NCBI GenBank assembly: GCA_947625245.1
Contig: CANQNO010000001.1
Span: 124,001-188,000 of the forward strand
Source of the DNA: an uncultured Clostridia bacterium
GTDB taxonomy: Bacteria > Bacillota > Clostridia > Christensenellales > Borkfalkiaceae
Direction of reading: 5' to 3'
DNA: 64,000 nucleotides
Shown: positions 46,916-49,557 of the stretch, piece after piece
How the letters are laid out: every line of letters begins with the position of its first letter
Position numbering within the stretch: position 1 is the first letter of the stretch
Notes under the pieces: generated by a model
What the model was told of the DNA's origin: nothing
Database searches by the model: none
Seen by the model: only the letters and a program-made list of their open reading frames with translations
Program-made: the position numbers and the translations under genes

Positions 46916-46925
46916 CTGAAAAAAT

Positions 46926-47012
46926 CTCTTTGCACTATCGCTCAAGCATTATCTTGCCGATTCAAAGGGTATAATCTCAGCTTCGCGCCTACGCGTTCAG
47001 CACCCCCGACGA
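46926..47012 (-). promoter_or_regulatory. TPP riboswitch (THI element)
   Basis: On the minus strand the aptamer hallmarks occur in order: GGGGGTGC, GCTGAGAT, ACCC, GAA, then GATAATGC and the closing GTGCAAAGAG. Followed by an intrinsic terminator and then thiT. Thiamine pyrophosphate is expected to reduce expression. Confidence 0.92.
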
Positions 47013-47119
47013 TTAAATTATTTATTATATTCAAATTATATTTCAACAATTACGTAAAGTCAATTGAATTTTACAAAAAAATAGGATATAATTTATAAAA
47101 ATCATATTTTCGGTGAACT

Positions 47120-47704
47120 ATGAGCTATAATTTTTACGCCTTTATGGACAGGATGAAATATATCAGGCGCTGGCAGCTTATGCGGAGCGTACGTTCCGAA
47201 AACATTATGGAACACTCCGAACAGGTAGCAATGCTTTCCCACGCGCTCGCCGTCATAAACAACAAAATTTTCGGCGGAACGGTCAACCCCGAAAAGTGCG
47301 TAATGTACGCCGTCTACCACGAGTGCGCGGAGGTTATGACGGGGGATTTGCCCACTCCCATAAAATATTTCAACAACTCCATCCACGGCGCGTATAAAGA
47401 GCTGGAGGACAGGGCATGCGACAAACTTCTTTCAACCTTGCCCGAAGAACTAAAAGGGGAAATAGAAAAATCGGTTAAGCCCGACAAGGCTTCCCCCGAA
47501 TACGCGCTCATGAAAGCGGCGGACAGGCTTGCGGCGTATATAAAATGTTTGGAAGAGTTAAAAAGCGGCAACAAGGAATTCATAAAAGCCGAAAAGTCCA
47601 TAAAAGCCGACCTGCTTTCCCGCAATATGCCCGAAGTAGATTACTTTTTCGAGCATTTTATTCCCTGTTTCAATCTTACTCTGGACGAGCTTGAAGGTTT
47701 TTAA
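47120..47704 (+). CDS. yfbR: 5'-deoxynucleotidase YfbR-like HD-domain protein
   Basis: 194 residues, closely matching YfbR over its length: MRSVRSENIMEHSEQVAMLS, TGDLPTPIKYFNN, KAADRLAAYIKCLEEL and DYFFEHF. YfbR removes 5'-phosphate from deoxynucleoside monophosphates. Metal/catalytic residues His32, His67 and Asp133 are kept, but the HD aspartate is Glu68 (YHEC). No operon partner. Glu may still bind metal. Confidence 0.92.
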   Translation: MSYNFYAFMDRMKYIRRWQLMRSVRSENIMEHSEQVAMLSHALAVINNKIFGGTVNPEKCVMYAVYHECAEVMTGDLPTPIKYFNNSIHGAYKELEDRACDKLLSTLPEELKGEIEKSVKPDKASPEYALMKAADRLAAYIKCLEELKSGNKEFIKAEKSIKADLLSRNMPEVDYFFEHFIPCFNLTLDELEGF

Positions 47705-47713
47705 AGGGAGAGG

Positions 47714-47743
47714 AAAAAATAAGCCCCGCGCTACCGCGCGGGG
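47714..47743 (-). terminator. Terminator of the minus-strand transcription unit
   Basis: Minus strand: CCCCGCGC (47743-47736), loop GGTA, GCGCGGGG (47731-47724), then CTTATTTTTT. The U tract exists only on the minus strand, so it ends the 47.7-48.0 kb transcript, not yfbR. Confidence 0.88.
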
Positions 47744-47760
47744 TAATATATATTCTGTTA

Positions 47761-47847
47761 TTAAGTTTTACGAGACTTTTGCTTTTTCGCGGCGCTTTCA
47801 TAAGCTAATCGGTTATCAAACCCTGCAACCTCGGCACCGTTGCACAT
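47761..47847 (-). CDS. Possible 28-residue small protein
   Basis: ATG at 47847, TAA ending at 47761: MCNGAEVAGFDNRLAYESAA followed by a Lys/Arg-rich end KKQKSRKT. The ribosome-binding site is weak (GCGGG). It occupies the 3' half of the transcription unit up to 18 bases before the terminator stem. An acidic/neutral first part with a basic tail is plausible for a real peptide but could be chance. Confidence 0.35.
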   Translation of the reverse strand: MCNGAEVAGFDNRLAYESAAKKQKSRKT

Positions 47848-47896
47848 TTAACCCGCTACTTTTTTAAGCCTCTCCGTTTAAATTGTACATTGGAGT

Positions 47897-47941
47897 TTAC
47901 CTGTCCTTACCTTTCTTGATGCGATTGTAAAGCCTGATCAT
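47897..47941 (-). CDS. Possible 14-residue peptide with consensus ribosome-binding site
   Basis: ATG at 47941, TAA ending at 47897: MIRLYNRIKKGKDR. AGGAGGT lies 7 bases before the ATG, the best possible placement. Very basic. In the same frame, three codons after its stop, comes another ATG for the 8-residue MYNLNGEA. Could be a leader peptide or a small effector. Confidence 0.45.
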   Translation of the reverse strand: MIRLYNRIKKGKDR

Positions 47942-48012
47942 CGGTTTTACCTCCTGCAACAATAATGTGTATGCGCAACACTTTTTGTAAGCTATTTTCT
48001 TTTTCTGATTTT

Positions 48013-48040
48013 ATTATAGCATAAACATTTTATTTGTCAA
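48013..48040 (-). promoter_or_regulatory. Consensus promoter of the unassigned RNA
   Basis: Minus strand: TTGACA (48040-48035), 16-base spacer, TATAAT (48018-48013). Both boxes are perfect; TSS near 48006. Points away from the antiporter gene. Confidence 0.82.
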
Positions 48041-48135: not shown

Positions 48136-49557
48136 ATGTTACCTTTTGATGGGAATTCCGCGCTCGGCTTTGTCGCCGTGCTCGCGATAATATTGTTTTT
48201 TACCAAACTTTTCGGCTTGTTTATCCGCAAGTTGGGTGTGCCGCAGGTGCTGGGGTTTATTATAGCGGGAATATTTATAGGACCCGCTGTCTTCGGCGAT
48301 TTTTGCGGCTTTTCGCTTATCGGGTTTGCGGGCAGGGGCTATACGCCGCTGTTCGTCCTGCCGGAAACGGGCAACGCGCTTTCGGTCTTTTCCAAAATAG
48401 GCGTATTGCTTTTAATGTTCACCACGGGGCTCGAAACAAACTTAAAAGACCTTAAAAACACGGGCGCCGCCGCCTTTTTAATGGCTTTTGCGGGCGTTAT
48501 AGTGCCGCTTGTGCTCGGCTTTTTAATTTCATTGCCTTTCGGCGGAATAGGCTTGGGATTTGCGGGTAAAGCCAATATTTACCGCTCGGTATTCATAGGC
48601 ACCGTTCTTACGGCTACAAGCGTCGCCATAACCGTGTCGGTATTAAAGGAACTGGGCAAAATACATACGCGGCTGGGCACCACCATAGTGTCAGCGGCTA
48701 TTATAGACGACGTAATAGGCATAGTGCTCCTTTCGGTAGTTACGGGCATTGCAAAGTCGGGCACGGGGGAATATTCCAACGGGTTTGAGTGGTTCAAAGG
48801 GCAGATATACGGCACAGTGGTTATGATAATCTGCTTTTTTATATTTGCCGTCGTTGCGGGCTTCGGGATATCCAAAGTATTCCGCTGGCTCGAAAAAAAG
48901 CGCGCCACCACCCACCGCATACCAATATTTTCGCTCGCCGTATGCTTTGCGTACAGCTGGATAGCCGAAGAAATTTTCGGCGTCGCAGATATAACGGGCG
49001 CGTTCCTTGCGGGGGTAGTGCTGTCCACGGCGCACCGCACAAGCGAATATGCCGACAAAAAGATAGAGGTGTGCACCTACACAATTTTCGCCCCCGTGTT
49101 CTTTGCAAATATAGGCATAACGAGCATAAGTTTTGCGGGGCTCGACCCGCGCATAATTTTGTTTGCGTTGCTTGCCGTGCTCATGGGGCTTATAGGCAAA
49201 ATAATAGGCTGCGGCGCGGTCTGCAAGGCGTTTAAATACTCGTTCAGGGAAAGCCTTACGGGCGGCGTGGGTATGATGGCGCGCGGCGAAGTCGCGCTCA
49301 TTGTCACCGCTACTGTCACGGACGCGGCTCTCGGCTCCAACGCCCTGCCCCCGCAATTTATGATAATGACCGTGCTGTTGATTTTGATTTCGTCCGTTCT
49401 CACGCCGATTTTTTTAAAACTCCTGTACGGGAACGAGAAAAAGCAGTTGCCGCTGAACCCCGGCGACGAGGAGAGCGCGCTCGAAGGTCCGCAGGAGCTT
49501 CCGGATTCTTCGTCGGGCAGGCACCGCCATTCCAATTCCAATTTCGTTGGGGATTAA
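48136..49557 (+). CDS. Cation:proton antiporter, CPA2/Kef type
   Basis: 473 residues with about 12 membrane segments. LGVPQVLGFIIAGIFIGP at the start, TTGLETNLKDLK, ATSVAITVSVLKELG and SAAIIDDVIGIVLL (the twin-Asp pair of the ion site) place it in the CPA2 monovalent cation:proton antiporters. It lacks the C-terminal RCK/TrkA domain of true KefB/C and ends in a short hydrophilic tail. Probably exchanges Na+ or K+ for H+. GAGGGA precedes the ATG. Confidence 0.9.
   Translation: MLPFDGNSALGFVAVLAIILFFTKLFGLFIRKLGVPQVLGFIIAGIFIGPAVFGDFCGFSLIGFAGRGYTPLFVLPETGNALSVFSKIGVLLLMFTTGLETNLKDLKNTGAAAFLMAFAGVIVPLVLGFLISLPFGGIGLGFAGKANIYRSVFIGTVLTATSVAITVSVLKELGKIHTRLGTTIVSAAIIDDVIGIVLLSVVTGIAKSGTGEYSNGFEWFKGQIYGTVVMIICFFIFAVVAGFGISKVFRWLEKKRATTHRIPIFSLAVCFAYSWIAEEIFGVADITGAFLAGVVLSTAHRTSEYADKKIEVCTYTIFAPVFFANIGITSISFAGLDPRIILFALLAVLMGLIGKIIGCGAVCKAFKYSFRESLTGGVGMMARGEVALIVTATVTDAALGSNALPPQFMIMTVLLILISSVLTPIFLKLLYGNEKKQLPLNPGDEESALEGPQELPDSSSGRHRHSNSNFVGD

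Follow-up and report, generated by a model that had tools for sequence, protein, structure and literature searches.

Comparison with related genomes points to a new class of RNA, one that corresponds to no Rfam family, encoded on the minus strand of the 64,000-nt stretch of DNA analysed here (hereafter the window). Judged from sequence, this RNA gene is predicted to be conserved across one Clostridia genus and to be present in other genera of the same family. An earlier note on this DNA had offered three options, namely a gene for a small peptide, an RNA with two functions or a structured RNA of a new type, and the comparison supports a structured RNA with conserved, probably translated mini-ORFs. 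The reading we favour, to which we give a probability of about 0.45, is that of a stand-alone RNA with probably translated mini-ORFs and a self-pairing loop, in which the choice between helices would be made by ribosomes translating the mini-ORFs. The window copy and its flanks comprise the following features.

48136-49557, plus strand: Na+/H+ exchanger gene, one flank of the RNA
48013-48040, minus strand: predicted promoter, TTGACA (48040-48035), 16 nt, TATAAT (48018-48013), 12 of 12 consensus bases
near 48006, minus strand: transcription start expected from the promoter
47967-47981, minus strand: 5′ hairpin GUGU-UGCGCAU-ACAC with a 7-nt loop, predicted kissing-loop dimer site (from loop covariation in relatives)
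47949-47955, minus strand: Shine-Dalgarno (SD) sequence AGGAGGU of ORF3 (from sequence)
47897-47941, minus strand: ORF3, 14 codons, MIRLYNRIKKGKDR then stop, present in all 76 RNAs tested
47864-47890, minus strand: ORF4, 8 codons, MYNLNGEA then stop, in the same frame and 6 nt past the ORF3 stop codon (from comparison)
47866-47872, minus strand: 5′ strand of helix P1a, GAGGCUU, the last two sense codons of ORF4 plus the first stop base, pairing with 47778-47772
47789-47856, minus strand: 3′ structured domain closed by GCGG (47856-47853) and CCGC (47792-47789) (window duplex; RNAalifold on 10 clade copies)
47772-47778, minus strand: 3′ strand of P1a, AAGUCUC (window duplex, sequence)
47759-47769, minus strand: conserved tail AAAACUUAAUA ahead of the terminator (from alignments of relatives)
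47715-47743, minus strand: intrinsic terminator with a GC stem of 8 bp followed by a U-rich tract (from sequence)
47120-47704, plus strand: yfbR (Pfam YfbR-like), the other flank of the RNA

The minus-strand promoter and the strong GC-rich terminator described in the earlier note were both recovered where it had placed them, and they delimit a predicted transcript of about 290 nt. TG precedes the −10 element, and the terminator hairpin (47743-47724) reads CCCCGCGC-GGTA-GCGCGGGG, followed by CTTATTTTTT. Within the 3 kb scanned, no other site matches the consensus at all 12 positions; a single site proves little, because promoter-like sites are common in such a scan, 9 being counted here and 4.7 in shuffled sequences. 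Across 30 aligned copies TTGACA is invariant and the −10 element is TATAAT or close to it. Related loci were first apparent as blastn matches in 55 of 101 genomes, partly outside the RNA. R1, a model of the promoter, leader and first hairpin built from 30 copies, matched 79 of the 93 genus genomes, usually once per genome, and 54 of the 61 good-quality ones; it was unmatched in the remaining 14, 7 of which are among the 61 good-quality genomes. The recurrence of the 5′ block and promoter in 79 genomes, together with SD-led ORFs far in excess of shuffled sequences (below), indicates that the arrangement is more than chance. We infer that the RNA is made, and at a high level. Promoter, ORFs, helices and terminator are conserved among the relatives, apart from one 28-codon ORF discussed below.

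The adjacency to the antiporter gene remarked on in that note holds in the window, but no link extends beyond the neighbourhood, since the flanking genes of the relatives stand in either orientation. In the window, yfbR follows the RNA in convergent orientation, and among 76 RNAs the downstream gene lies on the opposite strand in 47, on the same strand in 28 and is missing in 1, a variation from which we conclude that the RNA is not a leader. The same counts weigh against the explanation that it is a ribosome-mediated attenuator leader of the amino-acid or antibiotic type, whose regulated gene has been lost or is reached by read-through. Short ORFs do lie ahead of a terminator, and one of them is overlapped by a helix; a regulated gene downstream on the same strand is nevertheless not a consistent feature, and we consider this explanation highly improbable. 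Ribosome-mediated attenuator leaders include those of trp and erm. As in the trp, erm and vmlR leaders, ribosomes on short ORFs are expected to choose between helices, whereas the present RNA has no conserved downstream gene, several ORFs in series and a complete terminator.

The earlier note had matched the RNA to none of the common RNAs, and the Rfam search it proposed agrees: no family of Rfam 15 matched in the whole window at curated cut-offs. Around the RNA at E ≤ 1, two sub-cut-off matches touch it, both on the terminator hairpin: ClpQY_promoter (17.8 bits, cut-off 42) and DUF3800-VIII (22.5 bits, cut-off 40.2). In 14 relatives searched at E ≤ 5, the best match on the RNA was Leu_leader in one of them, L003 (25.5 bits, cut-off 50). 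6S RNA and tmRNA were rejected as identities, with no match to RF00013 or RF00023 at this locus; those of this genome lie elsewhere, at G000:C7 and G000:C2, respectively. A lone match to GOLLD (17 bits, cut-off 150) fell outside the RNA. According to PMC12286853, OLE, ROOL and GOLLD are self-associating bacterial RNAs, and kissing loops are among the stabilising contacts of the three complexes. The present RNA resembles them as a stand-alone bacterial RNA that self-associates, here by prediction, and differs in having no Rfam match, in the shorter length of the window copy and in carrying SD-led mini-ORFs. Elsewhere on the minus strand of the window (46918-47017), a divergent TPP riboswitch was seen below its cut-off (32.4 bits, cut-off 54.3, E = 0.00081), preceding a Thia_YuaJ/ECF thiamine transporter gene and accompanied by a terminator hairpin at 46917-46891; the TPP riboswitch matches in L003 and L013 are likewise below cut-off.

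Short ORFs are greatly enriched within the RNA. Between promoter and terminator of 93 RNAs we counted 236 ORFs that begin with AUG behind an SD and do not exceed 40 codons. This amounts to 2.54 per RNA, where dinucleotide shuffles give 0.33 and the reverse strand 0.01; the count takes in 93 of 107 distinct stretches, among them the uncertain L124 and L131 and some whose terminator was placed too early, and omits 8 unrelated or uncertain stretches (L083, L125, L126, L127, L129, L130, L132 and L133), 4 with no terminator found and 2 over 800 nt. Three conserved classes of mini-ORF follow one another in series: a 4-codon ORF with its hairpin, ORF3 and ORF4. The 4-codon ORF, with a hairpin at most 2 nt from its stop, occurs in 62 of the 79 genus copies, with a 3-codon version in L117, and encodes mostly M-K/T-Y/F/D/G-K/T. 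A search for this module gave 70 matches, 3 of them spurious; 67 of the 70 pass a permissive SD test. UAG is the stop in 65, UGA in 3 and UAA in 2. The hairpin stems are CCGC/GCGG, CCCC/GGGG, CGGC/GCCG or CGCC/GGCG, and 65 of the 70 matches have a GAAA or GAGA loop. L012 carries three such modules, and L005 and L112 two each, while the module is absent from 16 genus copies, including the window and its nearest relatives, which form its clade. If minigenes are taken to be SD-led ORFs of 2-6 codons, 63 of the 79 genus copies have one, as do 14 of the 16 relatives from other genera or beyond; the window copy has none. In L007, L014 and L024, an extra SD-led ORF (MKMIRAVSS...SA, then stop) lies between the 4-codon ORF and ORF3, and its end overlaps a possible hairpin. 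Pairing between the 5′ leader and the first SD is weak, exceeding 95% of shuffles in 32 of 60 RNAs with the mini-ORF and in none of 16 others.

Both the 14-codon ORF with a perfect AGGAGGT and the 8-codon ORF in its frame, which the earlier note had singled out in the window, proved to be members of conserved classes. These analyses cover 76 of the 79 genus copies, the ORF4 pattern having missed L106, L109 and L120. ORF3 has 10-20 codons and starts with AUG in 73 RNAs and UUG in 3; its start was set at the first AUG, GUG or UUG that fitted a permissive SD pattern, and some ORF3s were lengthened by this choice. In the 51 RNAs with common spacing, the mean entropy of ten ORF3 codons is 0.84, 0.90 and 1.21 at the first, second and third positions, so that the third position is the most variable, and there are recurrent residue classes. 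In 51 of 76 RNAs the ORF3 stop begins 9 nt ahead of the ORF4 start, and in 7 the two ORFs overlap as AUGA. ORF4 has 8-11 codons in 75 of 76 and begins AUGUAC in 59 and AUGAAC in 14; the conservation of its second codon may reflect constraints on the RNA. The layout is similar in 16 loci outside the genus (L079, L124, L128 and L131, where no ORF4 was seen, were left aside): the first ORF has 2-5 codons in 14, and ORF4 is present in all 16, with GUG in place of AUG in two. This exchange of start codon with the frame kept speaks for translation, and the serial mini-ORFs are likely to be translated. The 28-codon ORF of the earlier note exists at 47847-47761 on the minus strand but is not conserved: the count of SD-led ORFs does not include it, none of the nine aligned clade relatives has its ATG, and we rejected it as a real gene; it reads as a chance ORF inside the structured region. 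In L079 and L128 (group g43), we observed the tiny ORFs MTK and MLD, and by eye MKA, each followed by a stop, and repeated CCUCC...GGAGG hairpins directly behind some stop codons.

The conservation of ORF3 in every RNA tested and its codon-like pattern of variation would also be expected of a polycistronic small-peptide gene, in which the ORF3 and ORF4 peptides are the products and the helices merely protect the mRNA. Against it, the residues of the 4-codon ORF change (MKYK, MKDK, MKFK, MTYT) and the first ORF outside the genus has 2-5 codons in 14 of 16 relatives, which makes these ORFs too short and too variable to be the source of a peptide product; moreover, the last codons of ORF4 track a helix and not a peptide sequence. 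We regard a small-peptide gene as rather unlikely.

The helix in question, P1a, pairs the last sense codons of ORF4 with the strand just 5′ of the conserved tail, which resembles AAAACUUAAUA across the relatives. Over 76 RNAs, the mean duplex energy with a copy's own partner is −21.4 kcal/mol, compared with −16.6 for partners from other species. The own partner beats all 75 foreign strands in 4 of the 76 RNAs, and in 15 at least 16 of the 75 foreign partners pair at least as well, as is expected where adjacent helices show little variation. With the ORF4 part taken by itself, the values are −9.4 with the own partner and −6.4 with dissimilar ones; the own partner pairs better than their mean in 67 of 75 RNAs, and 19% of dissimilar foreign partners do as well. 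Outside the genus P1a recurs with other sequences (own −13.2, swapped −10.7, n = 16, weak in L073 and L084). In 19 aligned copies picked for similar layout, all six P1a pairs of the named structure have double changes and 97.4% of cells are paired; in the same 19 copies the whole named structure has 27 double-change cells compared with 7.4 in shuffles (reached in 0 of 500), while further pair types are not beyond shuffles (451 of 500). RNAalifold on 10 copies of the window's clade, also picked for similar layout, recovered P1a (4 pairs) and the next helix, with a slightly unfavourable covariation term (+0.83) and double changes in 3 of 23 pairs. The window copy folds no better than its shuffles, either whole (z −0.84) or in its 3′ part (z 0.33). 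The first base of the ORF4 stop falls 0-13 nt past the last base of the P1a 5′ strand in 75 of 76 RNAs, P1a being taken here as the first helix of at least 4 bp in the predicted duplex, an assignment that looks wrong in L043, L105 and L116.

Stop codons adjoining helices, and ORFs of 2-5 codons with SDs in up to three modules per RNA, are also compatible with a titrator of ribosomes or tRNA, whose tandem SD-led minigenes would hold initiating ribosomes or shed short peptidyl-tRNA and so lower translation, with the helices slowing release. Bacterial minigenes can be toxic. A titrator, however, has no need of a conserved 3′ domain or a self-complementary loop, and the RNA is usually encoded once per genome; this explanation is unlikely, though it deserves some weight. 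In axe-txe, a two-codon mini-ORF acts in cis on the toxin gene of its operon, according to PMC8708949. The likeness lies in ORFs of two to a few codons acting through translation, whereas the minigenes described here sit in an RNA with no gene behind them.

The structured, ORF-bearing RNA that we favour has a further conserved element at its 5′ end. In the 79 genus copies aligned to R1, the first hairpin has a 5-bp stem and a 7-nt loop, and the loop hexamer is exactly self-complementary in 78 despite changes of sequence; the last copy has GCUGGC, self-complementary if G-U pairs are counted. Sixty palindromes are in the main register (GGUACC 25, GCGCGC 15, GACGUC 5, GGCGCC 4, GCUAGC 4, AGCGCU 3 and four singletons). 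A further 18 are in a shifted register, AGCGCU in 15, GUGCAC in 2 and, with a 4-bp stem, UGCGCA (47977-47972) in the window, and here several hexamers were tried per copy, which makes a chance match likelier than in the main register. In one group of copies (L026, L097, L100-L105, L107, L108, L111, L118, L119 and L123), AGCGCU in the shifted register is accompanied by a large insert between ORF4 and the tail, the terminator lying about 620-780 nt from the −35 element.

Stem cells of the hairpin are paired at 96.2%. For stem and palindrome together, 92 double-change cells were counted, compared with 32.7 in shuffles, and 91.9% of cells are paired, compared with 78.5%, neither value being reached in 500 shuffles; slid versions gave at most 52.7%. 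Pairs with change on both sides (185 of 500) and further pair types (153 of 500) are not beyond shuffles. A rough tree of 76 RNAs, for which 230 columns of this same RNA were used, implies no fewer than 24 switches between loop types. Since the loop varies and yet stays its own complement, pairing between two RNA copies is the best explanation. The genus copies carry a feature expected of a kissing-loop homodimer, a self-complementary apical loop kept by covariation, and two copies of the RNA would pair through it. In group g40, inspected by eye, a long hairpin takes the place of the palindromic loop, so dimerisation cannot be universal.

An inverted repeat near the predicted start site might instead be a DNA operator, placed directly behind the promoter and bound by a dimeric repressor. 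Under a common regulator a single sequence would be expected, whereas 12 different exact palindromes occur in one genus, and the flanking stem is kept while the register of the palindrome shifts; an operator is therefore improbable. The retroviral dimer-initiation hairpin carries a palindromic hexamer in a short 9-nt apical loop. The hairpin described here shares with that kissing hairpin the palindromic hexamer in a short apical loop, and is otherwise unrelated, with a loop of 7 and not 9 nt in a bacterial RNA bearing mini-ORFs.

In the mechanism that we propose, every SD would recruit ribosomes, which would translate only a few codons before halting at or within a helix, and ORF3 would feed ORF4 through coupling, as the common 9-nt spacing and the AUGA overlaps suggest. 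Counted from the A of the ORF4 start codon, P1a begins 18 nt further on in the window, which is near the front of a ribosome engaged in initiation; loading and early elongation should therefore open it. Ribosome loading would then keep P1a melted and the 3′ domain open, and P1a would close when initiation falls; the open or the closed dimer might then act on a hypothetical partner and so report translation capacity. Taken to its full extent, and more tentatively, this would describe a new class of RNA machine, an abundant loop-to-loop homodimer read stepwise by ribosomes, in which mini-ORFs serve as gates, stop codons are set against helices and the state of the dimer reports ribosome initiation to the cell.

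SgrS, RNAIII and Spot 42 are dual-function regulatory RNAs. The present RNA is like them a small structured RNA with a short ORF, its conserved SD-led ORFs lying within a conserved structure. It differs in its serial mini-ORFs, usually two or three with a recognised SD and some of 2-5 codons, which end at covarying helices. RNA classes are normally sorted as coding or non-coding, and here selection appears to keep both levels, because the helices covary while the frames running through them stay open at narrow lengths. If translation does gate the fold, the RNA would be a free-standing RNA sensor of the ribosome, a task otherwise carried out, to our knowledge, by mRNA leaders; with ribosomes determining its shape, it would then represent an RNA of a new kind. 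The 12 self-complementary hexamers also offer a natural series for kissing-loop biophysics. No description of the RNA or of its combination of parts was recognised in the open-licence papers searched, supplements aside, nor was the RNA seen in passages of PMC8040213; the parts are known singly.

In an even draw of the order, R1 matched 35 of 396 genomes, including 17 of the 22 members of the family that do not belong to the genus (L083, one of these 17, was judged unrelated) and 12 of 13 in group g40; R1 was built within the genus, and its absence elsewhere is only weakly informative. The pattern AAGG-N(4,9)-TCCRATGTAC matched 37 of the 396. A draw of the family gave R1 in 87 of 201 genomes at E 0.001, counting weak matches in groups g39 and g318. 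In a draw of the class 5 of 291 were matched: two in the genus, two further in the family (one being the unrelated G133/L083) and G600, whose locus proved unrelated on reading. L084 comes from a different family within the order; inspected by eye its layout is similar, but it scores low. Weak matches in the family include those in group g318, L157 and L158, and G600 has a second match. A pattern scan of named genomes returned 23 stretches, each of which belongs to a MAG named as a Clostridia, Clostridiales or Eubacteriales bacterium, and a viral scan for the 5′ block found none.

Some R1 matches were set aside. L083 is unrelated on reading, and the weak matches L125, L126, L127, L130, L132 and L133 are promoters of ordinary genes. 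L193 is likewise unrelated; its strong promoter lies opposite a short hydrophobic ORF, and the whole looks like a type I toxin-antitoxin arrangement. A second weak match in three genomes corresponds in two to ordinary gene promoters and in one (L131) to another promoter-led stretch. L131, L124 and L129 are promoter-led stretches with ACAA- or AAUAA-AAGGRAGUA-like leaders and without the mini-ORF series, terminators having been placed by script at 752 nt (L131) and 579 nt (L124) from the −35 element; these three possibly form a second RNA family.
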